Shown here: positions 1 through 61,328 of the stretch, one piece after another
Layout: each line of letters opens with the position of its first letter
How positions within the stretch are numbered: the first letter of the stretch is position 1
Origin: Boothiomyces macroporosus
Lineage: Eukaryota > Chytridiomycota > Chytridiomycetes > Rhizophydiales > Terramycetaceae
Assembly: GCA_027604185.1 (NCBI GenBank)
Contig: JADGKB010000050.1
Coordinates: 36,532-100,531, forward strand
Direction of reading: 5' to 3'
DNA length: 64,000 nucleotides
Notes under the pieces: generated by a model
What the model was told of the DNA's origin: nothing
Databases searched by the model: none
Seen by the model: only the letters and a program-made list of their open reading frames with translations
Made by a program: the position numbers and the translations under genes

Positions 1-940
1 AGCTTGGTTATTCAACATCTTTCCTAATCCTACTTGGTAATAACCTTGAATTTCGATATCTTCTTCAATAAAAATCCTGGAGCTGTTTCTAGAATCTACC
101 AATTTCTGTAATCCAAGCTCAGCATTTTCTTGCGAGCTGTTAAGCGACTTGTATAGAATATATCCGCTTCTTTCTTCATCAGAGCTATATCCAGAAACAG
201 GATCGTTGCCTAGATTAATATGAATAACCTCTCCATTTCAAATCATGTGGCAAATCAGTTGAAAACTTTTCATTCAAAGGCATCGTTTCTTCACTCTTTT
301 TGCTGATTTCTTTTTGTAACAATAACAGAGACAAGTTGTGTATCATTTGAGGCAATTCTTCTTGGAACATGTTTCGCAGCTGTTTCTCAATTTGGCGTTG
401 TAGCAGCTGTCTTATATTTGGTATATTATCAAAAGTAGAATTCACATTGACTGATTCTAGCGGGTCGTTTTTAAATACTAGAGTGATTCCTCTTTCCTTG
501 TCGACTACCAGTACAATGATTCCTTTGAGTTTCAGTTTCGATATTCTCATTTGCATAGGAACCACTTGGTTAATAACAAATACCTAAAGGGCGGTGGGCT
601 AAGAGCATTGTCCTTGATCCTAGTAGTCTGCCATTTGGCGGAATAGAAAGTGGGTTTGCTTGCACTTGGGTTTGAACAACAATGGAGGCATCGCCTTGGT
701 ATTGTAATTTGAATATTCCCTTAAACCTATCCTGAATCAACTCTGATATTTCCAAAATCTCTAGATCTGGAGGCTGGAATTAATCTTGATTACCTTGGTT
801 CCCATGTTCAAAGCAGTTACTGTGATATCACCCACAATATTTTCTGGTTTCTTTCCGGTATTCAGAGCGGTAGTCAGTTGCTCTGTAGCTTTCTCAATGA
901 AATCACTTGAAAACGAAGGCCAGTTGACTTTGAAGGACAT
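1..940 (-). CDS. MDM34: Mdm34, ERMES complex subunit (C-terminal part cut by window edge)
   Basis: Mdm34 is the outer-mitochondrial-membrane subunit of the ER-mitochondria encounter structure (ERMES) and carries a lipid-binding SMP domain. Exons read on the minus strand are 940-794, 773-584, 564-229 and 209 to beyond the edge. The introns are 20, 19 and 19 nt. The spliced protein begins [14 protein letters not shown] and continues with [49 protein letters not shown] and [13 protein letters not shown], all hallmarks of fungal Mdm34. None of the three breaks makes sense unspliced, since each falls inside a conserved block. The visible 294 codons cover the SMP domain and the start of the variable C-terminal part. 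Its ATG is 106 bases from the divergent gene at 1047. Identity is very secure; the 3' end is missing. Confidence 0.95.
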
Positions 941-1046
941 TTTTTTGATTTGAAATTTCTTGCTTTAAAAAGTGAAATTATTCTCAGCTGATTCTGATTC
1001 ACTTGACCAAATGAATGGATATTTCCATTGTTTTCTTTTTTAAAAA

Positions 1047-1772
1047 ATGTCGCTCTTGGTCTTGGGAACTTCTCTCGTCGCTGGAACGCTTGGTGCTCCA
1101 TGGGTAGATAAGCTAGATAAATCCGGTCTAAAAATACTGAATTATGGTATTAATGGGGTGCAATTGCCTGGGATTATTGAACAAGTAAAAACATTGCAAA
1201 TCGAAAAGCCGAAAGCAATAGTGATAGTTGCAGGTGGGAATGATGTATACGCCTCATTTCCTGAATTGAAGCAAGGGGTTTTTGGCAATGGAAGGAAAGG
1301 AAGACCAGATTCCAGCCCAGAGGAATTCAAAATCGAAATGCTGGAGCTACTAAGCCTTCTTTCGGAAATGTATGGGGAGGTTCCGATAGGGATTGGGAAC
1401 ATCAAGCCCATTGGGGAACAGTTGGATACTAATTTAAACGATCAGCTACGCGCTTTTAATGGGGTGATTGATGAAATCATTTGCACAAAATCGAATTACT
1501 CACTCTTGGATTTCTACACTCCGCTTTCTGATTTGTGTCGGCAAAACAATTTGGCAGTAAAGATAGAATCTGATAACCTTACTTTTATGATCAATCCATC
1601 GAGGATGATTTACATTTACTCTCTGTACAAGCTTACTCTTGGCTACTATTCCTATGATAGTATTGGGGACGCGAGAGGTTTTTACTGTACCTGTGATGGA
1701 TCTCACTTTAATGAGAGATCTGCTGCAATAGCTTTGAAGATTGTCTTGGATTACCTCAGCACTTTGAAATAG
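1047..1772 (+). CDS. SGNH/GDSL-type hydrolase, putative
   Basis: Single-exon protein of 241 residues. The N-terminal LVLGTSLVAG block replaces the GDSL nucleophile motif (GTS instead of GDS). It is followed by GINGVQL (block II type), VAGGNDVY (block III GxND) and a C-terminal DGSHFNE matching the DxxH catalytic pair. This order is typical of the SGNH hydrolase superfamily, a group of esterases and lipases. No signal peptide is obvious, although the first 17 residues are moderately hydrophobic. The substrate cannot be inferred. The gene is divergent from MDM34 and followed by a short repeat region. The superfamily call rests on motif order only; whether it is active is open because the serine motif is non-canonical. 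Confidence 0.7.
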   Translation: MSLLVLGTSLVAGTLGAPWVDKLDKSGLKILNYGINGVQLPGIIEQVKTLQIEKPKAIVIVAGGNDVYASFPELKQGVFGNGRKGRPDSSPEEFKIEMLELLSLLSEMYGEVPIGIGNIKPIGEQLDTNLNDQLRAFNGVIDEIICTKSNYSLLDFYTPLSDLCRQNNLAVKIESDNLTFMINPSRMIYIYSLYKLTLGYYSYDSIGDARGFYCTCDGSHFNERSAAIALKIVLDYLSTLK

Positions 1773-1793
1773 AACTGATCAATAAAGAGGATT

Positions 1794-1857
1794 GACAAGC
1801 AGATTATCATATTTGACAAGTATTAAATTAATCATATTTGACAAGCAGATTATCAAC
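1794..1857. repeat. Short direct repeats downstream of the SGNH gene
   Basis: The 16-base word gacaagcagattatca occurs at 1794-1809 and again at 1840-1855. The word atcatatttgacaag also occurs twice in the same interval. This is an imperfect tandem duplication of about 46 bases, with no coding potential that I trust. Confidence 0.6.
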
Positions 1858-2065
1858 TTGTAAGAGCAGCGCGGCTGGAGTCCAGCGGGAAATCAAATTG
1901 ATCACAGGGCACCTTGCTTTGAGGACAAGATGGTATACGTTGAATAACGTTACTAACTCGATCTGTTTCAACAAATGACTTTTTTGATTAATGATCTCTG
2001 GTGAAACAAAGTTTGGCTCCTCCTGTGGCTGAGAGTATTTAAAGTTTTTTCGCCTTGTAAACTTT

Positions 2066-3340
2066 ATGTTTAAAAAGTAATTTAAACCTAACGATAGGTG
2101 GCTAAAGAAGGGCCCGCCCTCCAAGCTGTTGATTAAAGAAACCATTCATTACGACGACGAACCCCATAGTGCGACCGACTCTGCCTTTGGGGAAGATATT
2201 TCAAAAATAGGTACCTATTACTGATACAGACTTTATCTCTGCTCTTCCCCTTGAATTAGCTGCCTACATACTGGGATATACCAGCATCTCTGATCCTACT
2301 TTTCTTGTTTCCAAAGCATGGAAATCTGTCAGAGAAGATTCAATGGTCTGGAAGCAGTTTTACCTACGGTCATTCACTCCCCCAAGGGGACCAATTGCGA
2401 ACTGGAATGAATTATACCAAAAAAGAATGAGGCTGGGTGAGAATTGGAGGAATGGGCTTGTAGACGGAAAGAGTTTGGCTGGACATTTGGATGCTGTTTA
2501 CTGTATTCAATTTGACTCTGAAAAGATTATCAGCGGTTCAAGGGACCAGACAATCAAATACTGGGACTTGAAAACTTATAAATGCTACAGGACACTTTCT
2601 GGACACACCGGCTCAGTCTTATGTCTCCAGTTCAATGAACAGTATATAATATCTGGAAGCTCGGATACTACGATTAGAATATGGGATACAGTAACTGGGG
2701 AAACATTAAAAGTACTGTCTGGACATGAATTACCAGTTCTGGATGTAAGATTTAACGACAAGTATATATTTTCTGGTTCCAAAGACTGTACAATCAAAAT
2801 GTGGGATTTGAAAACCGGAGAGCTACTTCACACATTCACTGGCCATTCCGCTGCAGTAAATTGCATTTATGTTCATACCGACAGTGTGGTGTCTGCAAGT
2901 GGGGATGGATCAATCAGAAGATGGTGTCTTAAAGAACTCCGCATAATTCAAGAGTTTAGAGGACACGCTAGAGGCTTGGCGTGTGTTTTATATGATGGAC
3001 GCACTATCATTAGTGGCTCAAATGACAAAACTATTAGATTCTGGAATACAGAATCTGGCCTCGTCCGCGAATTAAAGCAGCACACTGAACTAGTCCGTAC
3101 ACTAGCATTCAACCGGGATTTCATTGTCAGTGGAAGCTACGACCAAAGTATCAAAATATGGGATTTTGATGGTAATTTGATACTAGATATGAAAGACGCT
3201 CATCGTAGTTGGGTCTTTCATGTTCAAATAGATTGTACAAAGATTGTTAGTAGTGGCCAAGTAACTTTTATTAATTATAGGACAACAAGATTATTATTTG
3301 GGATTTTAGTAATGGGGAAGATATGAGTATGTTTGTATGA
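2066..3340 (+). CDS. F-box / WD40-repeat protein, SCF substrate receptor type
   Basis: Exons are 2066-2076, 2098-2210, 2230-3260 and 3281-3340, giving 404 residues with introns of 21, 19 and 20 nt. The first coding exon has only 11 bases. After a basic leader and an acidic stretch, an F-box (DFISALPLELAAYILGYTS) lies near residues 40-80. At least six WD40 repeats follow, with blades such as GSRDQTIKYWD, GSSDTTIRIWD, GSKDCTIKMWD and GSYDQSIKIWD. The last exon restores a final blade (GQDNKIIIWD) that the unspliced frame destroys. F-box plus WD40 proteins (Met30, Cdc4, Pof1 type) bring phosphorylated targets to SCF ubiquitin ligases. I cannot assign an orthologue because most of the substrate-binding propeller is generic. 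Confidence 0.88.
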
Positions 3341-3373
3341 ATAACAATAAATGTTTTGCTAGATTTTAAGTGT

Positions 3374-3600: not shown

Positions 3601-3743
3601 TGAAATCTGAATGAAAACAGAATAGATGATCCAGATCCTTCCTTTTTAATTTTGGTGAATCATTCAAATCTGCGGTTGATAAGCGTGTTGGTGAATCATC
3701 AAAGGCTTTAAATATCCGAGTTCTAAACATCCTTCCGAGAAAA

Positions 3744-12420: not shown

Positions 12421-12990
12421 TTAGTAGAAGAATCCAAGGATTTTACCACCAGTCTTCTTTCTACGAGCTTCTTCGTGGTCCATGATACCAGCAGAAGTGG
12501 TCAAGACAAGGAAACCGAATTGACGGGATGGCAAAAGGTTGTTGATCCAGGTTTCGATATCCTTTTGTTTGACGTTGAATCTTGGGGAAATAACACCGCA
12601 CTTGTTCAAACGACCAATAAGTTGAATGATAATTTTTCCAGAACGATGGTCATCAACAATTTCAAATTCACCAATGTAGCCTAAAGAATTAGTAAGGTTC
12701 TTTGTGAGATTGTCGTGTTGTTATAAATCTTGAAATCTTTTGAACGATCTTCAAGTTGTAAGACAGCACTTTGCTATATCGCATGCTTAAAAGATGAATA
12801 TCCATTGATATTATCCGACAAGCATCCAGTTATACATGCGAAACTTTTGTGACTTACCATGCTTTTGCATAACAGACAAGAACTTGACGATAACCTTGGA
12901 GGATGGGCGGACTTGGACTTGACGTTTTCCAGCCTTTTCAGCGTTAACAATGCTCTTGAGACAATCAGCGAGGACAGAGATACGGACCAT
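12421..12990 (-). CDS. RPS22: 40S ribosomal protein uS8 (S15a / Rps22)
   Basis: Exons 12990-12858 and 12680-12421 encode exactly 130 residues, the usual length of the family. The first exon reads [19 protein letters not shown] and [16 protein letters not shown]. The second contains [27 protein letters not shown] and [16 protein letters not shown]. The protein is a small-subunit rRNA binder. The single intron is 177 nt, about nine times the local norm, begins GTAAGT and ends TACTAATTCTTTAG with a textbook branch site. It probably hosts an H/ACA snoRNA (see 12708-12831). An AATAAA lies 10 bases after the stop. Confidence 0.97.
12708..12831 (-). ncRNA. Candidate intronic H/ACA box snoRNA in the RPS22 intron
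   Basis: Counting from the 5' splice site, intron bases 33-75 form a first hairpin. Its lower stem is atgctt with aagcat, a two-sided internal loop (the pocket) follows, and the upper stem is aatatc with gatatt around a four-base loop. An H box atagca (ANANNA) lies at 81-86. A second hairpin has a lower stem gtgctgt with acaacac (one mismatch, bases 89-95 and 137-143). A second pocket and an upper stem cttgaa with ttcaag follow. ACA sits at 145-147, just after the stem. This is the complete hairpin-hinge-hairpin-tail layout. Budding yeast RPS22B also hosts an H/ACA snoRNA (snR44), as I recall. The modified rRNA positions were not determined. Confidence 0.7.
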
Positions 12991-18923: not shown

Positions 18924-18950
18924 CCACACCTGTCAAACGGAAATCTTTAA

Positions 18951-21638
18951 ATGATTTCTCCAGATAGTTTTACTGACAAAACAACACAAATAATCTCCAA
19001 TGCACAGCAGTTATGCACGGAGATGGCCCATGTTCAGCTTGATGCTGTGCATGTTGCAATCAGCCTATTGGACGAACCAGACCAACTGTTCAAAAATATT
19101 CTACAGAAATCTGGTGCTGATCCACAACAATGCGAAAGAAAACTGCGATCTATCCTAGTAAAGAAGCCTGCCCAAAATCCTCCACCTACCGAATTGTCCT
19201 ACCATCCATCATTCGCTAAATTACTAAAGGATTCCAACGACCTGAAAACAAAACAAAAAGACTCGCACATCTCAATCGATCATCTCATTCTCGCTCTTTT
19301 GGAAAACAGGGAGATAATGACCCAAATTGAAAGTGTTGGTGGAAACAAGAAAGCCATCGAACAGGCTGTATCTCAAGTTAGAGGCAACAGACATATCGAC
19401 TCTAAATCTGCCGACTCTACTTTTGATGCTCTTGGTAAATACGCCATCGATATGATCAAATTGGCTCAAGATGGAAAACTAGATCCTTGTATCGGAAGAG
19501 ATGATGAAATCAGAAGGGTTATCCGAGTGCTGGCCAGAAGAACAAAGAACAATCCAATTTTGATTGGTGAACCCGGTGTAGGAAAAACTGCTATCGTTGA
19601 AGGTCTTGCACAACGTATCCTAAGAAAAGATGTCCCTGTTTCTTTGCAGGGAAAACTCTTTTCTCTAGATATGGGTTCACTGATTGCTGGTGCCAAATAC
19701 AGAGGTGAATTCGAAGAAAGACTAAAGGCCGTCTTGAAGGAAGTTACTGAAGCCGGAAATGTTATCTTGTTTATTGACGAAATCCACACCGTATTGGGTG
19801 CGGGTGCCTCTGAAGGTTCTCTCGATGCCGCAAACTTATTGAAACCAATGCTGGCTAGAGGCGAGCTTCGATTGATTGGTGCTACTACTTTGAATGAATA
19901 CCAAAAGCATGTTGAAAAGGATCCTGCCTTTGAAAGAAGATTCCAACAAGTGCTAGTAGGCGAACCTTCCGTTGAATCTACTATTTCAATCTTGCGTGGT
20001 ATTAGAGAAAAATGGGAAGCCTACCATGGTGTTCGTATTGCTGATGCTGCCCTAGTTGCTGCTGCCACTCTCTCAGACAGATATATTACCAACAGGTTCC
20101 TACCAGACAAGGCTATTGACTTGGTGGATGAAGCTTGTGCTAATGCCAGGGTGCAGCTAGAAACTCAACCTGAAGCAATTGATATCCTCAACAGAAAGAT
20201 TCTCCAACTCGAAATCGAAGCAACTGCCCTTGCAAAGGAAAAAGACACTGCAAGTATCCAAAGATTGCAAAAGGTTAACGAAGAATTGGCAAAATACAAA
20301 GAACAAATGATACCACTGAAGCTAAAGTATGAGTCTGAAAAAGGAAGAGTCGATGAATTACGAACTTTGCAACAAAAGATGGAAGAACTCAAGACCAAGA
20401 TTTCTGATGCTGAAAGGAGATATGATCTCGCTCTTGCTGCTGATTTGAAGTACGGTGCCGTTCCCGACCTCCAGAAGCGTATTCAACACTTGGAACAACA
20501 AAATGAACTTGAAAGGGAAAAGTTGTTTGAAACTGGTTCTCAAGAAGGAAGGTTGGTTACTGAACACGTCTTTGCCGAACAAATCATGGATGTAGTATCA
20601 AAATGGACTGGAATTCCTGTTTCTCGTCTCAACAAGTCTCAGGTTGACCGTCTATTGAATCTCGAGGATGCTCTCCACAAACGTGTTATCGGCCAAAATG
20701 AAGCTGTCAAGGCTGTTGCTGAAGCTGTACTTCGTTCAAGAGCTGGTCTCTCAGGCACAGGAACTATTGGCTCTTTCCTCTTCCTTGGTCCTACTGGTAC
20801 TGGTAAAACCGAGCTCTCAAAGACTTTGGCAAAGGAACTGTTTGACGATGACAAGAAAGGCTTGGTCAGAATCGATATGTCCGAATACATGGAGTCTCAT
20901 GCTGTATCAAGACTTATTGGTTCTCCTCCAGGCTATGTTGGTTACGATGAAGGTGGCCAGCTAACTGAGGCTGTTAGAAAGCATCCATACTGTGTCATCT
21001 TGTTTGACGAAATCGAAAAGGCTCATCCACAAGTATTGAACATTCTACTGCAGGTTCTTGACGATGGAAGACTGACTGATGGAAAAGGCAGAACAGTCGA
21101 CTTTTCCAACACTGTTGTAATCATGACTTCCAATGTTGGTTCCAGCTACCTTCAATCTGCCAATGAAGTGGATCAAGTCGTCAAAGGAAACGTTATGGCT
21201 CAAGTTCGTGCAACATTCAAGCCAGAGTTGCTAAACAGGATAACGGACATTGTGGTATTCCATCCACTCCGCAAGAAAGGTAAGAGTTTTTCTAACTGTG
21301 TAGAATTAATCAAAATCGTCAATATTCAACTCACAGATGTCGCAAAGAGGCTCGAAGCTCGTAACACCACGCTCAGCATCTCTGATAAAGCTGCCGAATA
21401 TATTCTTGACCAAGCTTACGACCCACTATATGGTGCCAGACCTCTAAGAAGATACCTTGAACGTTTGCTAGTTACCAATTTGGCAAAGTTGATTGTATCT
21501 GGCGCTCTTCCTGAACACTCTGCAGTTCGCATTTTGACCAAGGCTGAAAAGGAAAAGAATGTTATATATCATGACGTTGATGAAAGTCTCGTGTTATCCA
21601 TTACCGATCGCTCCAATGAAATGGAAGTTGAAAATTAA
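18951..21638 (+). CDS. HSP104: Hsp104/ClpB-type protein disaggregase
   Basis: Exons 18951-21279 and 21304-21638 give 887 residues. The hexameric AAA+ disaggregase threads aggregated proteins together with Hsp70. It has an N-terminal Clp repeat domain, NBD1 with Walker A GEPGVGKT at about residue 206 and FIDEIH, and a GAKYRGEFEER pore loop. The coiled-coil M-domain spans about 410-520. NBD2 has GPTGTGKT at about 613, GYVGYDEGG as pore loop and sensor-2 GARPLRR. The 24-nt intron keeps the frame and has no stop, so it is easily missed. Removing it restores RKKELIKIVNIQL, the family consensus, where the unspliced frame inserts eight extra residues. It ends in an acidic tail like cytosolic Hsp104 and lacks a mitochondrial presequence. 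Confidence 0.97.
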   Translation: MISPDSFTDKTTQIISNAQQLCTEMAHVQLDAVHVAISLLDEPDQLFKNILQKSGADPQQCERKLRSILVKKPAQNPPPTELSYHPSFAKLLKDSNDLKTKQKDSHISIDHLILALLENREIMTQIESVGGNKKAIEQAVSQVRGNRHIDSKSADSTFDALGKYAIDMIKLAQDGKLDPCIGRDDEIRRVIRVLARRTKNNPILIGEPGVGKTAIVEGLAQRILRKDVPVSLQGKLFSLDMGSLIAGAKYRGEFEERLKAVLKEVTEAGNVILFIDEIHTVLGAGASEGSLDAANLLKPMLARGELRLIGATTLNEYQKHVEKDPAFERRFQQVLVGEPSVESTISILRGIREKWEAYHGVRIADAALVAAATLSDRYITNRFLPDKAIDLVDEACANARVQLETQPEAIDILNRKILQLEIEATALAKEKDTASIQRLQKVNEELAKYKEQMIPLKLKYESEKGRVDELRTLQQKMEELKTKISDAERRYDLALAADLKYGAVPDLQKRIQHLEQQNELEREKLFETGSQEGRLVTEHVFAEQIMDVVSKWTGIPVSRLNKSQVDRLLNLEDALHKRVIGQNEAVKAVAEAVLRSRAGLSGTGTIGSFLFLGPTGTGKTELSKTLAKELFDDDKKGLVRIDMSEYMESHAVSRLIGSPPGYVGYDEGGQLTEAVRKHPYCVILFDEIEKAHPQVLNILLQVLDDGRLTDGKGRTVDFSNTVVIMTSNVGSSYLQSANEVDQVVKGNVMAQVRATFKPELLNRITDIVVFHPLRKKGKSFSNCVELIKIVNIQLTDVAKRLEARNTTLSISDKAAEYILDQAYDPLYGARPLRRYLERLLVTNLAKLIVSGALPEHSAVRILTKAEKEKNVIYHDVDESLVLSITDRSNEMEVEN

Positions 21639-35552: not shown

Positions 35553-36274
35553 ATGAATATCTTTCAATTGATTGCAGACTTGACCCACGTCGCATCAATA
35601 TGTATCCTCCTCCTTAAAATGATTACAACCCGGTCCGCATCAGGTACATTTTACTAACCCAGGTACAACCAACCTAACCAGGCATCTCTTTCAAATCGCA
35701 ACTATTATTCTGTCTCGTCTTCATTTTCAGATACATTGATTTGTTTACACACTTTGTTTCCCTTTACAACACAGTAATGAAAATAATTTATATCTCTACT
35801 TCAATCTACACTCTCTTTTTGATGAAAACTAGTTTAAAAGCAACTTGGGATCCGAAACTGGATACTGTCCGGTTAGAGTTTTTGATTATTCCATGTGCAC
35901 TGTTGGCTTGCTTTGTTCATTACAATGGAAGCTCGATTATGGAAGTAACATTAGTTAATGTAGATTACATGGGCATTTTCAATTTACTTGGAAGCGGTGG
36001 CTATCTTGCCGCAGCTATTTCAGCTGTCCAGGACTGGGGAAGCCGAGACTATTACTGCTCATTATTTGTTTGCGCTAGGCGCTTACAGAGCGTGTTATAT
36101 ATTGAATTGGATATACAAGTATTTCACTAAACCGCACTTTCATGACTGGATTGCAGTGGTAGCAGGAATTATTCAAACTGGGCTCTATGTCGACTTTTTC
36201 TTTGTATATTTCACCAGGTTATCATTCTTAACTGTAGGGTTGTGAAAGGAAAGAGATTTAGATTACCAGCATAA
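35553..36274 (+). CDS. ERD2: ER lumen protein-retaining (K/HDEL) receptor
   Basis: Exons 35553-35643, 35682-35944, 35964-36217 and 36238-36274 encode 214 residues, the normal family length. The seven-helix Golgi receptor returns HDEL proteins to the ER. Signatures include [12 protein letters not shown] at the start, [21 protein letters not shown], the spliced [33 protein letters not shown] and YVDFF. The last exon restores the KGKRFRLPA tail, with a dilysine-like KGK. The first intron, 38 nt, is two back-to-back 19-nt introns (35644-35662 and 35663-35681), each with GTAC, CTAAC and AG. Removing only the first breaks the frame. Confidence 0.96.
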
Positions 36275-36321: not shown

Positions 36322-37470
36322 TCATTTAAAAAGCTGTGTAATGTCATCTGCGACCTTACCGTCTTGAGCGTCATAGTTGATATTCCGAACATCCTGCGAT
36401 AATTCTGATGGGTTGTATTGATAGTCTGAAGGTGTTACAAAGTTGACCAGAGGAGAAGTAGGATATCTAGGTGGCTGTATAAAGTTTTGCAACGGTGGTG
36501 ATTTAAAACTTGCGCTTCTGTATGGCATTGGATAAGCTTGTTGGGCTGATGTTGGATAAGATTGCCCAATTGGATACGGCATGGGATATTGGGACGCAGG
36601 CTGAGGAGTGTAAGTTTGAGGGAATGGCTGCATTATATCAAAAGGCGCTTTATCAGTTGATGATGGGAATGGGTTCACGTCTTGGAATCCTTTCAGCAAA
36701 TCATCAAAAGGTTGCGCCAATGCTTCATTGCTTGCTTGGAATGAATCTGCTTGATATAAAGGTTGGGTGTCTACTTGGCCCGATGGATCAATGAACGGAG
36801 TGTAAGGAGAATCAAACGGTGAATCGAATGGAGAATCAAATGGAGAGTCAAATGGAGACTCAAAAGGCGACTTGTGAGTTCCCAAGCCTCTCTCTTCATC
36901 TTGAATCTCGGGTGCTTCACCATTTGGACCTGGATAGTGCCGTGGAGATCGACCCCTAACTACGATCGGACCAGATTCTAATGTGCACACTTTAACTAAT
37001 TGTCCTGATTGTGTTGCGGCAAATAGCATCAGAATAACTGAAAAATGCTGCTTACCTCTGCTTCTTCTTGTGGTACTCGATGGAGAATTCTTGAATTGTA
37101 TACGAGGAAATGTTATAACAGAGAGAGAAGTTCCATCATATGGGTTCCCGCCTGCTATACAAGCAGTCGGTTGCGGAATCAACTGCGGTCCTCTATCTCT
37201 CTTTGTCGTTTGCTGAATCAATTCAATTTTCGACGTTTCTACATGATTTCCGGACTCTATTCCAATCAAAAACGCAGTCACTTTCTCAAAAGTGCCATTA
37301 CTATTTACTAGAAAGCGAGCATTGGGATGATCATGGATTGTGCCCAACGTAAACGAGCTTGATATCTGAAAGTAGTTTCGCCTATAGCAAGTCCATTCGT
37401 TATCTGCTAGAAAAAATCCCTTGTCAATCTTTCCAATCAATTTGGGTTCGACACTGCTGTTAAAACTCAT
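36322..37470 (-). CDS. NDT80/PhoG-type transcription factor
   Basis: Single exon of 382 residues. Residues about 5-185 are an Ndt80-type immunoglobulin-like DNA-binding domain: WTCYRRNYFQISSSF, RDRGPQLIPQP, AGGNPYDGTSLSVITFPRIQ, FSVILMLFAAT and PIVVRGRSPRHYPG. This fold is used by Ndt80 (meiosis) and by Vib-1/XprG-type regulators (nutrient stress, protease and cellulase genes). A repeated ESPFDSPFDSPF tract follows, with 12-base DNA units near 36806-36870. A Pro/Tyr/Gln-rich tail ends it and looks like an activation region. A role in secreted-enzyme control is possible but only inferred. Confidence 0.9.
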   Translation of the reverse strand: MSFNSSVEPKLIGKIDKGFFLADNEWTCYRRNYFQISSSFTLGTIHDHPNARFLVNSNGTFEKVTAFLIGIESGNHVETSKIELIQQTTKRDRGPQLIPQPTACIAGGNPYDGTSLSVITFPRIQFKNSPSSTTRRSRGKQHFSVILMLFAATQSGQLVKVCTLESGPIVVRGRSPRHYPGPNGEAPEIQDEERGLGTHKSPFESPFDSPFDSPFDSPFDSPYTPFIDPSGQVDTQPLYQADSFQASNEALAQPFDDLLKGFQDVNPFPSSTDKAPFDIMQPFPQTYTPQPASQYPMPYPIGQSYPTSAQQAYPMPYRSASFKSPPLQNFIQPPRYPTSPLVNFVTPSDYQYNPSELSQDVRNINYDAQDGKVADDITQLFK

Positions 37471-38071
37471 TTACTCTTGTTTGGTATCTTCGCTTTTCAG
37501 GGTTGCCAGCTGCTTGGGTTTTGTAAAAAACGGTTTGTCTTTCTGCTGCTGAATCAACGGATCTTCTTCTTTTGGTGATTTGGACATTTTTGCTTTTTGG
37601 AAAAGTGGTATGGGTTTGTGAATTAGAGGGAGTGGCTGAAGGAGGATTGCGCATTGTTGTGACAGGGGAATCGGAAAAGTGGAAAGAACTGTAAAATTCA
37701 GTAAAACCGGAATCGTATTTCGAATAGGGCCGGCAAAGGAATCCCTTCCGGTAACTTGATTTTTAGTTATTCCTCTGCCCATTTGCATTCCTCCACAAAT
37801 TGGTAGTGTTTTTGTGTTACACAATACCGCGTGGGAGTAAGGGTTCTGTTCCCTAATCCATCTTAAAAGATGGTAGAATGGCATCTTAACACCACAACTT
37901 GTACCTCTGATTCCCTTTGTTAGAACTAGCACTTTTATCATGCTACTAGATCAAACAAACGGAAGATGGTGCTGCCTATTTAAAAACCTGGCGGTACATT
38001 GTGTTGAATAATACAAGAATAAAATGAATCAAGCGCTCCGCCTACTCCGGAAGATATATTAGTACAATTCC
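37471..38071. other. Upstream region of the NDT80-like gene
   Basis: An open frame of 156 codons on the minus strand ends directly in front of the NDT80-like ATG. It shows no family motif, so I treat it as leader sequence or chance. No other structure recognised. Confidence 0.35.
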
Positions 38072-39564: not shown

Positions 39565-40466
39565 CTAAATGAGAAACAAGAGAAGGGATGAAAAAACCAG
39601 CTTTGAAAACTTTTGTTGGTCGTCATTACTCGAGTTGGTTTTAAAAGTAACAGAAACTGGCGACGATGTAGTACCAGTGGTGGATGTGGCAGTCTGAGGG
39701 ATAGGACTGGTGGAAGAAGAGTTTGAATAATTGTTGAATAGACATTTGGCAACAGTGCAAGTGTTCCCATTCACTACTGGGCTATCGCAAGATATTGCTG
39801 CCCCTGGGTATGAAGAGTAAACTGAAGACTGGTAGTCGCATTTGACTGTAGTGCCAGAAGCTGATTTAAGTATAATATTTGAAACTAGAAACTGTGGTGG
39901 ATTAGCGTGCCAACCAGAGGGAGTTTCTAAAACAAATTCAGCCCATGCCTGTTCTTGTCCTTGCATGTCATAAGAAAACGAAACAGAATTTCCTGTGTTT
40001 AAATTATTTATAGTTTGCTGCCAGACTGTAGATCCGGATAGTTGTTGGAATATCATCTGTAATTTGTCCCCCACATTTACATTCATTGCATTGCCTCCAG
40101 TACAAATGATGGGTGATACATAGGTATTCACATACTGGGCAGATATCCACCAGCTGTTGAGTGATAGTGGTATATTGGAAGGATTTGGAGCGCAACTAAC
40201 ACCTATCAAATTAAAACGGATATACCAAACGTCAACACGGGCTGTAGTACACCATTATTTAATGGCAGAAAATGAGCGGAAGCACTGAGGGGTTGCAAGC
40301 CTGGCCAGATAAATGTCGTCTGCCAGTCTTTTGACAGCAGTGGTGGAACTGTGATTGTACTTTCAAAATACACGAATGGGGTAGTTGGGTCTGCATACCA
40401 ATAGGCATTCACTGCAAAATTAGTGTCTGCAGCTTTAATCAGCCCTGATAGTGGTTCTACAAGCAT
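39565..40466 (-). CDS. Beta-sandwich-like surface protein with GPI-anchor signal, no CBM1
   Basis: Exons 40466-40226 and 40202-39565 with a 23-nt intron give 292 residues. The main domain is clearly the same as in 30101 and 31735 (TFIWPGLQPLSASAHF, NNGVLQPVLTFG, SCAPNPSNIPLSLNSWW, QAWAEFVLETPSGW). The intron sits exactly where the 30101 gene has its first. Instead of CBM1 modules a Ser/Thr stalk ends in a hydrophobic tail (KLVFSSLLLFLI), typical of a GPI-attachment signal. Oddly, the N-terminus MLVEPLSGLIKAA is not a convincing signal peptide; an upstream exon or an assembly error may be involved. The stop is followed within five bases by AATAAA. Confidence 0.8.
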
Positions 40467-40717: not shown

Positions 40718-42122
40718 ATGGATCATCTCGAACCTGACCAACAAGAATCAGTCCTTCAATTCCAAGTAAATCCAACTGACGATAGAATATATCAGGCATA
40801 GCTGAAATTAGTCTTGCAGTAGAAATCCTTGAAAATCATGACTGGGATTTACCTCAAGCTGTGGAGAGCTTTTTGACTGAACAACCTATTCCATCGAAAA
40901 TACCATCGGAACCATCATCCTCAAGAGCGCAATCCAGAATACCTGTACGAGCGCCAAACCCAGTACGCACTGCTGGTCCTGTTTCTCGTCCTACTCCATC
41001 AATTTTTTCCCTCTTAACAACACCTTTCATTTGGGGATACAAGTTTCTGTGGAATATCCTGACACTTACCCTCTCATTTTTACCGTTTTGGAGGAATAGA
41101 AGAATCAGAGGAAATTCAGATCCAACAGAGTGTGCAATCAAGTTTAGAAAGGAATTCATAAAAAACTATGGACAGAAAGCACCGCAGTTTTTTGAAGGAT
41201 CTTATTCCAATGCTCTGGATGCAGCAAAGCGGGAGCTGAGGTACATGCTTGCAGTGATCAATTCCGAAGAGCATGATGATAATGACCTCTTTTGTCGGTA
41301 AAATTATCCTTATCCTAGTGACACTCTTACCTCAGATTTGTTTACCAGTTTCATTAGAGATAAAGATATACTAGTGTGGGCTGGAAGTGTGCAGGAAAGC
41401 GAGCCATTCAAAGGTAAGCCAGATTTAATGTAGTCGCGGAATTACTTGGCGCGACAAAATATCCTTTCATGGCCCTAATTGCTCTCCATGAATCTCGCAT
41501 GAAAGTGGTACATAGGTTTGAAGGAATTACTGAGCCAGACACTTTTATTCAAATTACCACCAGATTCATGTCCCAATTAGACTTGTCCTACGCCCAAGCA
41601 AGAGCAGAAAAGAGGGAAAGAGAAGCAGCAAGGTCTATCAGAGAACAGCAAGATTTGGCTTACCAACAATCACTTAAAGCTGATAGGGAAAAAGCCGAGA
41701 AATTGAAAAGAGAGCAAGAATTAGCAGCGCAGAAAGAACGGGAAGAAAAACTCAAGGAAATCGAAATTGAACTAAAGAGACAGAAAAAGCGAGAATACAA
41801 GTTAGAGCTGGCTCAAAATCTACCTAGCGAACCAGAACAAAAAGATAACGTTGCCAATCTATCTGTAAGATTACCCAATGGCTCCAGGTTAACTAGAAGG
41901 TTCGATGCTGATTCCAAGATCAAGGTACTCCTTAGCTAACGATAGCAATTACATGATTTCATTGAAAGTAACGACTTGGACCCGATCGACTTGCTGTCTG
42001 AATTCGTTATTGTAAATACTTACCCGCGAAAGGAGTATACTGATTTAAACATTACATTCAAGGAAGCTGGATTATATCCTAGCGCAGCAGTCATAGTTGA
42101 AGAAATATCTGAAGACGATTAA
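40718..42122 (+). CDS. FAF2/UBXD8-type UBA-UAS-UBX protein
   Basis: Exons 40718-40765, 40786-41297, 41319-41413, 41434-41924 and 41946-42122 (introns 20, 21, 20, 21 nt) give 440 residues. FAF2 (Ucp10, related to Ubx2) anchors Cdc48/p97 at the ER and lipid droplets for degradation of membrane proteins. The UBA-like N-terminus includes SLAVEILENHDWDLPQAVES. A hydrophobic hairpin lies at about 89-117. The UAS thioredoxin-like domain includes DKDILVWAGSV and LLGATKYPF. A charged coiled coil spans about 270-350, and the UBX domain (LSVRLPNGSRLTRRF to the acidic end) closes it. Only spliced reading joins the UAS domain. Confidence 0.92.
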
Positions 42123-47511: not shown

Positions 47512-49364
47512 ATGTCTTTTGAATCAATGGAGTTGGATCCTCGTCTATTGCGAGCAGTAGCAAAATTGGGTTACAAGTCACCAACTATTGTTCAGGAAAC
47601 TGCTATACCGTTAGCACTACAAGGAAAGGATATTTTAGCAAGGGCAAAAACTGGGTCAGGAAAAACAGCAGCATACTGCATTCCAATAATCCAAAAGATT
47701 CTATCTAAAGTACTTTTAGATTAACGTCAGTCAACGCAATCTACACAGGCCTTGATTCTCGTTCCAACTAGAGAATTGGCTCAGCAAGTTTCGCAGAATA
47801 TAAAGGAACTGTGCATGTACTGCACCGCATTGGTTAAAGTGTTGAATCTATCGATTGGGGATACATCAGCAAAAGATCAAATGTAAATATAGTTAACTCA
47901 GTCCTTTGCTAGAAGAAAAACCACAGATACTTGTTTCTACACCTGCCAGAATCAGCGAGCATTTACTTGGTAATGGCGTAGACTTGTCAGATTTAGATTC
48001 GCTTGTTATTGACGAAGCTGATTTAATCCTTTCGTATGGGTAATTATTTGCTGACACAGTTACGACGAAGATGTTGAAAAAATATTGACGCATTTACCGC
48101 AAATATATCAAAGTTACTTGATGAGTGCTACCTTGTCACCAGTACTTTGTATTAACCCTAGGATGTTGAGAAATTAAAGAAATTGGTTTTGAAAAACCCA
48201 GCAATTTTGAAACTGGAAGAATCAGCCGAAGATGATTTGTTGACCCAATATTATACAACGTAGATAATTGCTTACCGTAGATGTGCCGACGAAGAGAAAT
48301 ATTTATTGACATTATTTATGCTAAAGCTAAAAGTTCATCCGTTCGGTTCGAGCAAATCCATCATCTTTGTAAACTCTATCGAAAAATGCTACAAATTACG
48401 TTTATTTTTGGAACAATTTGGAATCAAGAGTTGCACGCTGAATTCTGAGCTTCCCGTCAAATCGAGATTTCATATTGTCCAGGAATTCAATAGGGGAATC
48501 TATGACTTTATTATTGCAACTGATGAAAGTGGAGATTTGAAATCGCTTGTATTAGATTCAGATGACGAAGGAGAACAGGAAACTGTGGAAGAAGAAAAGA
48601 AAAAGAAGAAAAAGATCAAACAAGATGAGGACTATGGGGTATCTAGAGGTATAGATTTCAAAAATGTGTCTGCAGTTATCAATTTTGACATGCCACTCTC
48701 TTCTAGACAGTACCAACATAGAGTTGGGAGGACTGCTAGAGGTGTTGGAAACAGAGGGTATTCTCTTTCTTTTGTTGTCCCTGAAGATGAAGAAAAGATT
48801 GTGTATAAGAAAAAAAGAGCAAAGATCTCTGCATCTAAAGCGATTAAAGTTCCTTCTGACGAGCAAATATTAGCTAGAATTTTAAAGAAACAAGAAGGTA
48901 GATGCATACTAACTGTAGCCCTCGGACGCGAATTACTTCCATTCAGTTTCGACATGACTCCTGTTGAAAGGTTCCGATACAGATGTCAAGATGCGCTACG
49001 TGCAGTATCCAACACGGTGGTAAAGGAAGCACGTCTGAAGGAAATCAGGAATGAAATTATCAATTCTGAAAAGCTAAAGGTAATTGTTTCTTGATTGCAG
49101 ACCCACTTTGAAGATAACCCAGCCGATTTACAGGCACTTCGCCACGATAAATCCATTCACCCAACTAGAATTCAAAGCCATATGAGACACGTGCCAGACT
49201 ATATGCTTCCAAAAGGCAAAGTAACAGTATCGTCGGGAAACAGCTCCGGTTACGTGCCTTTCAAAATTGAAAAGAAAAGAAGAGGAAAGAAATTCAAAAA
49301 GGTTGAAGGCGCCAGTGCAAAGCGCAAGAAGGATCCACTCAAATCATTCTCATATACAAAATAA
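47512..49364 (+). CDS. DBP9: DEAD-box RNA helicase Dbp9/DDX56
   Basis: Exons 47512-47709, 47731-47882, 47902-48039, 48060-48141, 48162-48259, 48281-49079 and 49101-49364 with six introns of 19-21 nt give 576 residues. Dbp9 acts in 60S ribosome assembly in the nucleolus. The Q-motif region [20 protein letters not shown] is diagnostic of this subfamily. Further motifs are [38 protein letters not shown] and HRVGRTARG. The acidic/lysine-rich insert between motifs ([12 protein letters not shown]) is typical of Dbp9. The last exon ends in a basic tail. Introns with in-frame stops split the helicase core, so all must be removed for function. Confidence 0.95.
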
Positions 49365-50508: not shown

Positions 50509-51889
50509 ATGAACAGGAGGGCGTTTGCAACACTAGATCGACCATACAAGAACAAAACGACTCTCGATCTGCTGAATTCACTCGCAGTAATGAAGTTTTC
50601 AAAGATCAAGCCGTTGGTATCTGCATTCCCGACCTTGATCAACATGAACAACAATGCCGTAAATTGCTTGATCAAAAAGACTCTGTTTCCAGTCTTTTGT
50701 GGTAATTTACTCTAAGATAGGCGGTGAAACTATCAAGCAGACTATTCCGACAATGCGCAAGTTCAGGGAGTCAAACATCAAGACCGTTTTAGCCTTAGCA
50801 ATTGAAGCAGATGTAGATGAATTGGAACGTAAAGGAACTGACGCAGTTTCGTACACTCGCAAGATGGTGGATGATTTAAAGGTTTGCATTGATGGTGCGA
50901 GCAAGTTCTCGGATAACTTTATGGCAGTTAAATTTACTGCCTTGGTTCCGCCTGGTTTATTGAAGCGATGGAGCTTTAATTTGAAAAAGTTGCAGGATCA
51001 CTTTGAATTGGTTTCAACAGACGGCCTTTTATCTCGCTCGAATGTATCTCTAGTACAAGATGCGTTTCCAAATCTTGATGCATCAATATTTGACAAGTGC
51101 GACGAACTGTCATTTTCAGATATTACCGCTGCAGTCTCAATCTTTGGGCCAAATGCTCATCAGTTGATTTTGAATGACCCTCTTTCAGTAGATGCTGATG
51201 ATATAGAAACTTTTCAATTGTTATTGAATGAAATCAAGGACATCTGTGAGTACGCGCAACAAAAAAAAGTAAATTTGATTATGGATGCCGAGCATGACTA
51301 TTTCACTCCAGCGATTGACGATATAATAATTGGATTGGCAAGAAAGTATCCTCAAGGATTCATTTACCAGACCTATCAAATGTATCTGAAAACTGGATTT
51401 GAAAGAATGAAAAGAGATTTGTTGCGACTTGAAAAGGAAGGGGTTGCGATGGGGGTCAAACTAGTTCGCGGTGCCTACATGGATCATGAAAGACACTATG
51501 CGAAAATGAATGGGCTCGCTTCCCCAATCAATGAAACTCTCAAGCAAACCAATGATCAGTACAATGCTGCAGTGGAATACTTGATTGCAAATAATGTACC
51601 ACTTTTTATCGCCTCTCACAACGAAGATTCTATTGCAAAGGCTTGCAAACTTATTGGGCCAAATTCCAATGTTCGCTTTGGCCAACTGATGGGAATGCAG
51701 GATAGCATCACCTTTAAGTTAGCCCAAGGAGGATATAACGTGTACAAGTACGTTCCGTATGGTCCAGTCCCGGTAGTGATGCAATATTTGTACAGACGTG
51801 CCCAAGAGAACCGAGAGATGATGAACAGGCTTGATAAAGACAAGCGATACATTTTAACAGAGTTGAAAACACGATCATTGTTCAAATAA
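50509..51889 (+). CDS. PUT1: Proline dehydrogenase (mitochondrial)
   Basis: Exons 50509-50701 and 50721-51889 with a 19-nt intron give 453 residues. The FAD enzyme oxidises proline to pyrroline-5-carboxylate in mitochondria. An N-terminal basic stretch (MNRRAFATLDRPYKNK) could be a presequence. The fold motifs are GGETIKQTIPTMRKF, NLIMDAEHDYF, IYQTYQMYLK, MGVKLVRGAYMDHER, LFIASHNEDS, FGQLMGMQDS, YKYVPYGPV and YLYRRAQEN, the last being the substrate-site arginine pair. All catalytic blocks are present. Its stop lies in AATAAA. Confidence 0.96.
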
Positions 51890-56938: not shown

Positions 56939-56942
56939 TTTT

Positions 56943-57290: not shown

Positions 57291-57320
57291 GACGGCCAAA
57301 CTAAAAAAATCAAGAATACG

Positions 57321-58930
57321 TTATATTACTGACACAAACTTGTTTGGCATTAATTTATCATTCTGCATAGTAATCGGAAACCCGATTTCTTTTAAGCAAT
57401 CGACAACTGCGTTAACCAAGAATACCTTGCTTTGTGTTGCTGCCTTGAACCATTACTTGCGTTCGCTTGTCAACAATATTGACACTTGAGCTACTAGCGC
57501 ATTTGATTTTCAGCGTTTCGCTAAATTCTTCCGGATCAATTAGGAAAGTTTCCAGATTATTAATCAAGGTAACCATCTTGTTGCCCTGCCTCCTTTTGAT
57601 CTGGATAGTTATAGGCTGCAACTTGCCGCGTCTATATTAGCACTAATTACTTGATGATACTCTGTGATGGCAGCTCCAGACTGTAAAATGGCTGCATCTT
57701 TTGGATAAAACGATCTTTCAGTAAATCTCTTTGCATGTAGTCCAAAGAATACTCTTGCTTGGTTAAGAGTGCATCGTAAATATACGCATCCACTCTAATA
57801 TTTCTTCCGTTTGAAGGGTCCACCAGATTTTGTTGAGAGTAATAAGCATTCAAAAGTTTGTTGACGGAATCAGCATCGTAATATTCCAAACCAAATTCAT
57901 TCGAATTCAATTCTTGGACTAGTCTTTTTAGAGGGCCATTGGATGGCAGTTTGTATAGCTCTTGATATTTAACAGTATGCTTGTTTTCTTGCTTTACAAT
58001 CTTCTTTTCTTTTGGCGGCTCTTTCCCAGCAATCAAGGGATGATTTCTACAAACCGACATTACAAACAATTCCCCATTCTTTTCCTTTGTTTTAATCAAT
58101 CCCTTCTTTTCCATACTCTTTAGAAGCTTTGTAAGCTTTTTGAAACTGGATTTCTTAATGTCCAAAGTCGAACCTTCAGGTCTGTTTGGTAACATGTGAT
58201 TAGAATAAAATATTGTTGAAGTCATTGGGAATTGGTTGTCTTCCAGTTTGATGATTGATGTCAAAAATGATTTTTCAAAGAGTAGATCCATATCTTCAGC
58301 TGTAATAATAACTTCCTGAAGCTCTGTATTATCTTTGCTGTGTTGTTCGTCTTGTGGAGTATCTTGCGTTACATCTGGATCAACAGAGTCCAAAGTGAGC
58401 GCCGCAACATCTGGAATGAATTCAGGCGGGTCAGATTTATCTCCCATTTCCCATAAACAATCGCCATAATAGTGCAAATTCTGTATCGCTTTGCCTTCAG
58501 TTTCATTTGCAAGACTTGAACTACTTTTCAACGCTTTTCCAATTACTAAAGGATAAGGATTGTTTGGAAAGGTAATTCCAACTATATCTCCCTCTTCAAA
58601 CTCCCTACTAATTGCAATTATCCCAGGAACCATCAAATCAGCCCCATTATACAAATAATTGGTGATTACTTGCTTTGGGGTGAGCACGAGTGGAAGAATA
58701 GGATACTGCCAGCATAAATATATGGATGGTATCAACTGGTTCTGGAATGGCAGTTCAATCAACACTGGATTATCGGATGAATAAACGGAAAAAGTAGTGA
58801 AATTTGAATACTGTAAATTCTTCAATTGTATTTCTGAGTTGTATTGATCATTGAAATCCCTGACAATCTTCTTTATCTGCGAGTTCTTGATTAGTGACTG
58901 TTTGCGAAGCGCTTCCTTTTTTTTGAACAT
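57321..58930 (-). CDS. TMA64: eIF2D / Tma64 translation factor
   Basis: Exons 58930-57651, 57631-57426 and 57406-57321 with two 19-nt introns give 523 residues. eIF2D acts in 40S recycling and non-canonical initiation. The N-terminus MFKKKEALRKQSLIKNSQIK is typical. The PUA domain has MVPGIIAISREFEEGDIVGI near 98. A winged-helix/SWIB region (FKKLTKLLKSMEKKGLIKTK) lies mid-protein. The SUI1 domain needs both introns removed: KRGKLQPITIQIKRRQGNK, VTLINNLETFLIDPEEF, TQVMVQGSNTKQV and a last exon ending in FVSVI. It is slightly shorter than the human protein. Confidence 0.94.
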
Positions 58931-59063
58931 GAAAAAACCTCTAAAGCCATCAGATTATTTTATCTCTTGGTTTAATCTTGAACTTTTACCAGCGGATTCA
59001 TTGGAAAACATTGACAGAAAGAACGCGGTTAGTGATGCACTTGGAGAATATGAATTATATTAA
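58929..59063 (+). CDS. Possible 44-codon gene wedged between eIF2D and LSB5-like genes
   Basis: Open frame starting MKKPLKPSDYFISWFNLELL and ending GEYELY. Its ATG and the eIF2D ATG share the palindromic CATG at 58928-58931. Its stop (59061-59063) overlaps the stop of the opposing LSB5-like gene (59060-59062). The composition looks protein-like, with no low-complexity. No family recognised. It may be chance, since the flanking promoter must lie in the same 130 bases. Confidence 0.3.
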   Translation: MKKPLKPSDYFISWFNLELLPADSLENIDRKNAVSDALGEYELY

Positions 59064-60136
59064 AAATCAATCAATTTACCATCCTTTGAGGAGCCTTGGT
59101 TCGGAAATACTTCAAACGGATTCTCACCAAGCGTGCTATTGACAATATTTTGGTCATTTACATCAGATTCGCGTTGTTTCTGCTTACTTTTTCCATTCTG
59201 AGCTTGATCAATTCTACCACTGTTTGTCCGTTCAATAGTTTGCTTGGTTAAATATAGACTACTTGGTATTTCTTTTGTGCCCGCATTAGCTCTTCTTCAG
59301 CCTTTTTCAATTCTTGTTGTTCTTTGATTGCTACCATGGCATTGAATGCACAAGACAACTGATCACCCGCCTGCAACAGCAAATCCATGGCAAATTCATT
59401 TTCAGGGTTCAAGTCACCAATCCAAGCTTCGTTAGCAGCTTTTAATTTGGTGCATTGACCATGAAGGTCTCTTGCCAAATGGTTATCGCCCAAGTATTTC
59501 GTATTGAAATTCAAGGCTTCAAGGAACAAATCACTAGTGACCTTGACCATCTCAACATGCTCAAGTACTCTTGTTGCTTCATCTTCAAGCGTCATGTTTT
59601 CGATTGGTAATATAACTTCCACTCCATCACTCGGCAAATTTACAGCTTGGATTGCTTAGTTAAATAATGGTTACGTTGGAGATGTTCTTCCATTCCTTGA
59701 CCACAAGCCAATGCCACGTTCTTGAATTGCTGCCCAAACGGTCCATCCCCATACAACAATCGCCATTCCTGCATCATTTGCAGCAATTCAACTTTACTAG
59801 CACTAAGCGGCTACTATTAACAAAGGCTACCAATGAATAATACAGTTCTGGGAATTGCGGATAATTTACAAACGATTCTTGGAAATCTTGGGAATTTTTA
59901 ATCATAAAATCAAACAGCTGAACCACTTTTTCCCTCCTGGTCTTGTCCTTTTTCTTTAGTCGCTCCATTAAAGCTGTAATGATTTCATTGTTGTTTTCTG
60001 GGGTTGAAATCGATAGGAGCTGGGAGGCTCTCTCGATATTGAGCGCATTGAACTTTACATTAGTTGCTTTATCGATCAGGGTTTCATGCTCCTTTTCCCT
60101 TGTGAATGTACGCTTAATTGTCCCCCAAGTTACCAT
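59060..60136 (-). CDS. VHS-GAT domain protein, Lsb5/TOM1-like
   Basis: Exons 60136-59831, 59810-59675, 59654-59263 and 59242-59060 with three 20-nt introns give 338 residues. VHS-GAT proteins link ubiquitinated cargo and actin/Arf at endosomes. The VHS part (residues 1 to about 140) includes TLIDKATNVKF, ITALMERLKKKDKTRREKVV and, after splicing, LLQMMQEWRLLYGDGPFGQQ. The GAT three-helix bundle is at about 190-290 (MTLEDEATRVLEHVEMVKV, LLLQAGDQLSCAFNAM). The tail has NPFEVF, an NPF EH-binding motif. Lsb5 is closest in layout; a GGA origin is less likely because there is no ear domain. Confidence 0.85.
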
Positions 60137-60194
60137 CTTTAGGTGAAACTTTTACAACGCCACCAACACTTGGACAAAACAAGGATAATTATAT

Positions 60195-61328
60195 TTATGA
60201 AAAACTTGCTCCGAGAGATAATTCAATATTGATGGGTTCAAGGTCGCGGCCACTCTCGCCCCATGCGCTGTTAGTTTGGGCTAATGGCCGTTCCATATCT
60301 TCACCTATAGTGGCACTTCCATTTACTCCTTCAGAAGACTCTCTTGGAGAAACACTATTCCCTAGAGATACACCCACTTGATCTGGCGGTACGGGCGTCC
60401 CCAAGGTAGTCCTTTGAAGCATAATTCGCTGAGACTCTTCAACAACAGGCTCTTCTATCTTTTCTTTTTTCGCTTCCTTTTCCTTATTCATCAAGTATGA
60501 ATGTGCACAATAAAGGAGAACAAAATGCACGAATCCTCTTGTACTAAAGCAAACGATATCTAGGATTTCAATCACATCGTTAGCGGTGTCTTCAATATAA
60601 GCATCGACAGCATAGATAAATATCGGGATGCATGCGATTACATTAGACACGTTCAAGGTAAAGACCATCAACTTGAATATTCTACTTGCTCCTAATTTGA
60701 TAGCAGCAAGCCGCTTTCCGATTACGCATGTGAGTATGAAAACTATTGCGATTGAAATTGATGAATAAATAATATTGAATGGAATGGTATATCTATTGTT
60801 AGCCATCAAATACTGGTCTGCTCCTTGATTGATTTTCCAAACGTAAACAAACAACAGATTTACAAAGAGGGCATAGACAAATGCAGGTATAGCGCAGCCA
60901 ATTACGATGTAAAGCACATTGTATTTAGAAGTTGTGCCATTTCTACAAATAACATCGTAAGAAATCATGGAAATGATTGCCGCCAAGCCCATCTCGGTAA
61001 ACTGTGCGGTATCATAAACAAGCTTGCTGAGGTTGAACGACTTTCCAAGCACTGGGCTAATGTGGCCGTATTCTGCTTGCTGATAAATACATGCCATTTC
61101 AAAAATGATCCTACACAAAAAAGCGACTGCATACGTCAAGTCTAGTATTGCTACCGTATAAATAAGACTACCAAGAAGCGAGTTGCCATTGTAAATCTTT
61201 TTTGCCTGCCATCAGAAATAACTTGCCTTTAACAAACAAACTGACCCTCCGATCCCGATAAATGCTGATATAATTCTAACCCATAAGTACGAGAAACTCT
61301 CTATTTCTATGCTGTAAAAGTTTTCCAT
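60195..61328 (-). CDS. Seven-helix receptor-like protein (putative GPCR)
   Basis: Exons 61328-61227 and 61205-60195 give 370 residues. The intron is 21 nt and uses a GC donor: AAG then GCAAGT, ending GGCAG; no GT alternative keeps the frame. Seven hydrophobic segments are visible from about residue 12 to 275, with FTEMGLAAIISMISYDVICR around helix 3 and a cytoplasmic tail of about 95 residues rich in Glu, Ser and Pro. The arrangement fits cAMP-receptor/Git3-like fungal GPCRs, but no diagnostic motif proves it. Ligand unknown. It is 58 bases upstream of the LSB5-like gene on the same strand. Confidence 0.72.

Follow-up and report, generated by a model that had tools for sequence, protein, structure and literature searches.

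A chytrid fungus, Boothiomyces macroporosus, appears to carry mostly 19-23-nt introns

The nuclear genome of the chytrid fungus Boothiomyces macroporosus appears to carry mostly introns of 19-23 nucleotides (nt), near the shortest known in any organism. The window considered here is the whole 64,000-nt stretch that was analysed (contig JADGKB010000050.1, positions 36,532 to 100,531, assembly GCA_027604185.1), its G+C content running from 36 to 44% along its length, in a genome of 15.2 Mb and 216 contigs. A first-pass annotation, made from the letters of this stretch, had listed 67 introns and proposed that they are fungal spliceosomal introns with a modal length of 20 nt. Flat-prior gene finding, decoy counts, the GT-branch-AG anatomy, deposited Boothiomyces and Terramyces proteins and the genes for U1, U2, U6, SF1 and U2AF all speak for this proposal. 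We consider it highly probable that in this Terramycetaceae chytrid U2-type spliceosomal introns have been reduced to a unit of near-constant size, about 20 nt long. The predicted introns have GT-AG ends and their removal restores the frame, their branch motif is complementary to U2, and the genome encodes U1, U2 and U6 along with the proteins that recognise the intron 3′-end. As in known ultra-short-intron lineages, lengths lie in a narrow range near 15-25 nt and the branch position is fixed.

Results

Introns were called with a two-strand gene finder, written for the length test, that knows codon usage and the GT and AG dinucleotides only. The sample of 264 kb, which underlies the counts below unless another scope is given, combined the window with 20 pieces of 10 kb each, taken from contigs C1-C20. 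With an intron-length prior kept flat from 12 to 300 nt, this motif-free run returned 219 introns, 108 of them at 19-23 nt, and the calls outside that range formed a thin scatter up to 300 nt. Between 18 and 24 nt there were 109 GT-AG calls against 6-20 for seven decoy dinucleotide pairs. Splice signals were learned only after this run. The signal-trained finder (flat prior, 12-400 nt) called 281 introns, 229 at 19-23 nt, which divide into 53 of 19 nt, 104 of 20, 46 of 21, 18 of 22 and 8 of 23; the remainder consists of one of 16 nt, four of 25-38 nt and 47 above 40 nt. None of the 281 calls measures 17, 18 or 24 nt, while 24-nt introns exist outside this set in the genes for SF1 (locus L040) and Hsp104. 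Nearly all motif-free calls of 19-23 nt (106 of 108) recur in the signal-trained set. Under the same scoring the seven decoys gave 0-10 calls at 19-23 nt against 229 for GT-AG, so the tiny class stands far above chance. The tiny lengths and the mode of 20 given in the first-pass annotation are thus reproduced by a flat-prior finder and its decoys, and the length mix of its 67 introns, compared as a whole, agrees with the finder calls.

Genes of at least 100 amino acids number 163, of which 56 are intron-free, and hold 275 introns (225 at 19-23 nt, 45 above 40 nt); extrapolating from these 225 tiny introns in 264 kb, the genome would contain roughly 13,000. Across the genome, GTAATT-N2..32-CTAAY-N3..4-AG is matched 351 times and its reversed form 152 times, and 66 of the first 100 matches listed span 18-22 nt. 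Strong tiny-intron motifs (19-24 nt) remaining within exons number 15 in sense and 3 in antisense orientation. For the window, the signal-trained finder placed 55 introns: 13 of 19 nt, 21 of 20, 11 of 21, 3 of 22, 2 of 23 and five longer calls (65, 177, 177, 232 and 342 nt), among which only the 177-nt intron of uS8 was protein-checked, and held. Four more that the finder had missed were placed by hand (48260-48280, 57407-57425, 48898-48918 and 21280-21303).

The learned signals are a GTAAT(T) donor, a YTRAY branch motif and an acceptor that is mostly YAG. A simple GTA(A/G)GT donor pattern finds almost no matches, because the actual donor is GTAAT(T); the commonest donors of tiny introns are GTAATT, GTAAAT and GTAACT. 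Among the 225 tiny introns, A is found at +3 in 97% and at +4 in 62%, T at +6 in 58%, and +5 is G in 13% and T in 44%, with G as the final exon base in 56%. Among the long calls the +5 G is slightly more frequent (27% of 45), though that set is noisy. YTRAY lies near the 3′-end in 187 of the 225, and the branch motif at fixed spacing is already visible in the motif-free set. Its A occupies intron position 14 (92 cases), 15 (72) or 16 (18) in 182 of 187 introns and another position in five, which places the branch A 13-15 bases from donor G1, and it is followed by 5 nt in 86 and by 6 nt in 79 of the 187. Of 184 introns, 173 use the first AG past the branch; the other 11 bypass an AG at an A-to-G distance of 3 and each use one 3 nt downstream. 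What the sequence shows is a GTAAT(T) donor, a branch A at 14-16 in most introns, the first AG at least 4 nt past the A, and frames restored on removal. A CTAAY or CTGAY element just before the AG had been noted earlier; its position near the AG stands, but the motif is the broader YTRAY, with C as first base in 40%, and its strict form is absent from 38 of the 225. U12-type introns are marked by an extended donor such as (A/G)TATCC. The tiny introns do not have it, going by their commonest donors, in an analysis that included no search for U11 or U12 small nuclear RNAs (snRNAs).

All 46 called 21-nt introns contain an in-frame stop, as called by a finder that is blind to stop-free introns. 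When stop-free sense candidates are added, stops occur in 46 of 52 introns of 21 nt against 102 of 154 of 19-20 nt (p = 0.002), or in 46 of 55 against the same 102 of 154 when 21 and 24 nt are pooled (p = 0.016). Given this genuine bias in detection, the stop enrichment in introns of length 3n is a weak hint. Of the strong motifs that lack a stop, measure 21 or 24 nt and were left unspliced, three lie in gene models of the window and nine in the whole 264 kb; two of those in the window are predicted introns concealed in open frames, where they look like short insertions. The first, of 21 nt (48898..48918, + strand), lies in the Dbp9 gene, has its motif at the right spacing and would encode residues that are missing from 11 of 13 aligned relatives; at this site the Terramyces protein has its own insert of seven residues, and a Kappamyces protein has a further insertion. 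The second, of 24 nt (21280..21303, + strand), lies in the Hsp104/ClpB gene, where the motif accompanies 8 extra residues relative to the two Hsp104 chains displayed. The third candidate (60793-60813) is proposed from its motif.

Junctions were compared with deposited Boothiomyces and Terramyces proteins (both genera belong to Terramycetaceae, Rhizophydiales, Chytridiomycota) for Dbp9, SF1 and FAF2, three genes picked because of their tiny introns. All 13 junctions, of 19-24 nt, are gap-free: six of six in Dbp9 (P0001), three of three in SF1 (P0121) and four of four in FAF2 (P0242, P0243; JEL0866 and Terramyces proteins). Spliced Dbp9 is identical to the Terramyces sp. JEL0728 protein at 539 of 576 positions without gaps, spliced SF1 to the Boothiomyces sp. 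JEL0838 protein at 462 of 467, also without gaps, once its introns (21, 22 and 24 nt) have been spliced out, and spliced FAF2 shows 99% identity over 95% of its length to the protein of the same JEL0838. The Dbp9 introns, all on the + strand, are 47710..47730 (21 nt), 47883..47901 (19 nt), 48040..48059 (20 nt), 48142..48161 (20 nt), 48260..48280 (21 nt, branch CTTAC) and the last, 49080..49100 (21 nt). The first follows from the gap-free match to P0001, the fifth was placed by hand where the finder had missed it and agrees with the protein alignment, and the other four have both finder and alignment support. In the FAF2/UBX gene (+ strand), intron 1 (40766..40785, 20 nt) is gap-free against P0242 and P0243, the JEL0838 model P0241 beginning downstream of it, intron 2 (41298..41318, 21 nt) is gap-free against P0241-P0243, and introns 3 (41414..41433, 20 nt) and 4 (41925..41945, 21 nt) follow from protein alignment. 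A 19-nt intron in the Erd2 gene (35945..35963, +) is spanned by the Pfam ER_lumen_recept match.

The first-pass annotation had held that splicing restores family sequence in Dbp9, Erd2, eIF2D and Mdm34, and for the first two the alignment and the Pfam match just given bear this out. In the other two, whose names are putative, the frame is open through the junctions; the Mdm34 model has no Pfam match. The eIF2D-like gene (- strand) has introns of 19 nt at 57632..57650, called by the finder in an open frame, and at 57407..57425, its last, placed by hand with the frame open to the stop. The Mdm34-like gene (- strand) has finder-called introns at 210..228 (19 nt), 565..583 (19 nt) and 774..793 (20 nt).

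An artefactual origin, in which assembly indels or sequencing errors break ordinary genes and so mimic introns, had been raised at the outset. Frames are indeed broken at many sites and the assembly contains suspicious repeated blocks, but errors of this kind would not come with GT and AG ends, a mostly well-spaced YTRAY and a peak at 20 nt that the decoys lack, nor would deposited Boothiomyces and Terramyces proteins agree gap-free. Misfitting both the fixed anatomy and the proteins of relatives, this explanation can be practically dismissed.

Inspection of the U2, SF1/BBP and U2AF homologues, the check named in the first-pass annotation, found the GUAGUA region of U2 intact and SF1, U2AF65 and U2AF35 present. 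The U1 5′-end is the ordinary AUACUUACCUG, and U6 has an intact ACAGAGA. With an ordinary U1 end and a rare +5 G, U1 pairing at +5 would seem to be mostly given up. U2 is encoded at two loci (L009, L010), near-alike in their 5′ parts and different in their 3′ halves, with a TATA-like box upstream of both. SF1 is full length with a helix-hairpin domain by Pfam match, its relatives having KH and zinc-knuckle domains. The U2AF65 family profile was matched over residues 168-471 of 510 in a six-frame search, and the translation contains a tryptophan motif that we take to be the U2AF35-binding one; a 253-nt predicted intron that would fuse an upstream gene to U2AF65 (L011) was judged a false fusion. 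U2AF35 is found as four blocks on C1:324316-324913, covering query residues 3-189 of 193. A protein with a Methyltransf_10 domain, presumably the family of the U6 m6A (N6-methyladenosine) methylase METTL16, is also present.

These components bear on whether the segments might instead stay in the mRNA, with ribosomes jumping over them, or be removed by something other than a spliceosome. The segments fall well short of the lengths that human splicing can handle, for which PMC6692369 gives a minimum near 50 nt between donor and branch. Against this stand the branch motif, the presence of U1, U2, U6, SF1 and U2AF, and the spliceosomal introns of 15-21 nt that PMC10245619 and PMC9505925 describe in other lineages, so that we regard retention or non-spliceosomal removal as very improbable.

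Longer introns do occur. In uS8 (RPS22), splicing out a 177-nt intron (12681..12857, - strand) with a GTAAGT donor and a TACTAAT branch gives a full-length protein that aligns over 130 of 130 residues without gaps. RACK1 (L030, 5390-6821, + strand) has three long introns of 72, 191 and 227 nt, two of them with GTAAGT donors, and the match table rows pair the spliced product with RACK1 chains in a single segment (1-311 against 1-312). On these protein matches there are two intron classes, a minor one of longer introns beside the tiny one. The earlier statement that nearly all introns are tiny stands for 229 of 281 calls and has to admit this real longer minority. One might go further and suppose that intron lengths are mixed, the tiny ones being merely the easiest to find, as the protein-supported introns of uS8 and RACK1 and the 47 of 281 calls above 40 nt would suggest. 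Under signal-trained scoring, though, the decoys exceed GT-AG in the range above 40 nt, with 80-141 calls against 47, which makes most long calls look like noise; taken together, the 47 are indistinguishable from it. The 13 protein-tested junctions are moreover all of 19-24 nt, though in genes chosen for tiny introns, and we find a mixed distribution unlikely.

The uS8 intron may host an H/ACA small nucleolar RNA (snoRNA), a fair guess from its predicted fold. In shuffling, one of 200 sequences was equally stable (z -2.9), and the centroid fold shows two hairpins, separated by an ANANNA-like AUAGCA, with an ACA close to the end. Permissive Rfam searches gave five weak matches in this intron, three of them to H/ACA snoRNA families, and none in the RACK1 introns; at gathering score no Rfam snoRNA family was matched in the sequence covered, namely the window and 15 of the 20 extra pieces.

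The finder calls further tiny introns throughout the window. On the + strand, a WD40/F-box-like gene has introns at 2077..2097 (21 nt), 2211..2229 (19 nt) and 3261..3280 (20 nt), and a single gene model has five (6311-6329, 6463-6481, 8139-8158, 8332-8353 and 9251-9273). The same strand carries 25427-25448, 25629-25649, 25899-25919, 26130-26149, 29594-29613 and 30348-30366; then 46083-46102, 46276-46295 and 46570-46590; a 19-nt intron in a proline dehydrogenase gene (50702..50720); and 52537-52557, 53168-53187, 53580-53600, 55149-55168 and 55443-55462. On the - strand are 23522-23541, a 21-nt intron at 37454..37474, one of 23 nt at 40203..40225, three in Pil1 (42477-42495, 42587-42605 and 42989-43008), one in a Band 7 gene (44334-44355), and 56319-56338, 56510-56529, 56568-56586, 59243-59262, 59655-59674 and 59811-59830. 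A gene whose repeated units resemble cellulose-binding (CBM1) modules has one and the same 21-nt intron at 25629-25649 and again at 25899-25919, as though intron and exon had been duplicated together. An open frame at 63474-63998 (-) has the look of what we take to be Crinkler/RHS-type proteins.

Elsewhere in the genome, identical intron or domain matches recur within contigs at offsets of about 14-54 kb, either as long duplications or as assembly artefacts: C2:280991/323587 and C2:293983/336579, both offset by 42,596, C10:157457/211113, C20:74242/119309, C36:45043/87227 and C115:19789/33660.

Discussion

Several points weigh against reading these segments as a near-fixed class of U2-type introns. 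The 38 tiny introns lacking a strict YTRAY belong here, as do the 11 bypassed AGs, which all lie 3 nt upstream of the one used and are frame-neutral; since the frame is unchanged either way, those choices rest on the learned signal. The relatives' deposited proteins are predictions that possibly have a common bias, and the three tested genes were chosen for their tiny introns. The more distant Globomyces has a gap at one of the six Dbp9 junctions (and at none of three in SF1). U1 scores 68.8, just under the Rfam cut-off of 69.5, and U2AF65 reaches 230.7 in the six-frame search against a curated cut-off of 310.3. RED (PF07808) and U5 (RF00020) were unmatched, in searches that also matched no control genome. 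The assembly path proposed below, with an early exit of U1 and adjacent helices, is one that we infer.

How a spliceosome might handle such introns can be sketched tentatively; we would give slightly less than even chances to the idea that in Terramycetaceae it reads the intron as a rigid ruler, with a compact assembly and the loss of +5 G as part of the adaptation. The ruler would consist of a fixed 13-15 bases from donor G to branch A and then the first AG at least 4 nt away, and the intron would be recognised by it. SF1 and U2AF, and then U2, would bind a short branch-AG unit, and U1 and U6 would act on GTAA(N)T. If U6 pairs with about 6 donor bases and U2 with about 6 around the branch, some 2-4 bases would be left free between them. 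In the human B complex, according to PMC6692369, two paired regions of 17 and 14 nt are separated by 15 nm, so that about 52 intron nt between donor and branch are needed. Donor and branch being too close here to be held apart in that manner, and the U1 and U2 boxes being unchanged with SF1 and both U2AF subunits retained, a compact early assembly path is suggested, one in which U1 and U2 would not both be seated on the intron in the usual way. U1 may leave, or share space, while U2 takes its place, and from an early stage the U6/donor helix would lie next to the U2/branch helix.

The length distribution could have arisen from deletions that shorten introns until the distance between donor G1 and branch A reaches a lower limit of 13 bases. 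A deletion bias working against this limit would produce a sharp left edge, a mode at 20 and a pile-up at 19-21 nt. Longer introns would persist only in small numbers, perhaps in places where they have a use. In mikrocytids a like argument of deletion bias against a floor has been made (PMC10245619).

These genes would be broken by any gene caller or RNA aligner whose minimum intron length is set above 19 nt. In the one case compared, the deposited Terramyces Dbp9 protein, a seven-residue insertion stands where a stop-free 21-nt intron is expected.

Comparison with known ultra-short introns

Introns of other fungi have GT-AG ends with a branch motif, and those described here resemble them in this. 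They differ in length, 19-23 nt against a Cryptococcus mean of 63 bp that a fungal survey calls relatively short (PMC8476143). Microsporidian introns are short but few, according to PMC10245619. No report of such intron lengths in Terramyces, Boothiomyces or another fungus turned up in searches limited to open-licence papers, nor in passages of PMC5364385, PMC13391722 and PMC11210171.

Tiny uniform introns are already known elsewhere, and the chytrid is an unexpected and convenient lineage in which to find them. The tiny-intron lineages compared here are relic nuclei, parasites or ciliates, whereas this chytrid belongs to Batrachochytrium's order and has ordinary U1, U2 and U6 boxes and branch-site proteins, so that the lower limit of intron length can be asked about without a stripped-down or distant spliceosome and with relatives that can be compared step by step. 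Chlorarachniophyte nucleomorphs, with introns of 18-21 nt (PMC10245619), share the narrow length range, but nucleomorphs are relic nuclei in which about 300 genes bear introns, and the chytrid genome is 15.2 Mb with U1, SF1 and both U2AF subunits. The same paper gives 16-17 nt for mikrocytids, whose introns are likewise tiny and uniform (217 of 224 in Mikrocytos mackini are 16 nt); Mikrocytos is a parasite with 224 introns and a reduced spliceosome, and in the chytrid 264 kb alone contain 225 tiny introns. Paramecium and Nyctotherus also have a narrow ultra-short class, around 25 bp (PMC5014332); they are ciliates with introns a few nt longer and a strong pressure on stop-free 3n introns, of which the chytrid gives a weak hint only. 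Among heterotrich ciliates, with introns of 15-16 nt, Stentor coeruleus has 15-nt introns with the A at position 10 in 90.9% of them, for which avoidance of a steric clash was proposed (PMC9505925). The chytrid is like Stentor in its near-fixed length, fixed branch A, GT-AG ends and conserved snRNA recognition boxes, and differs in having introns about 5 nt longer, a clear YTRAY, G as the last exon base in 56% and a minor class of long introns.

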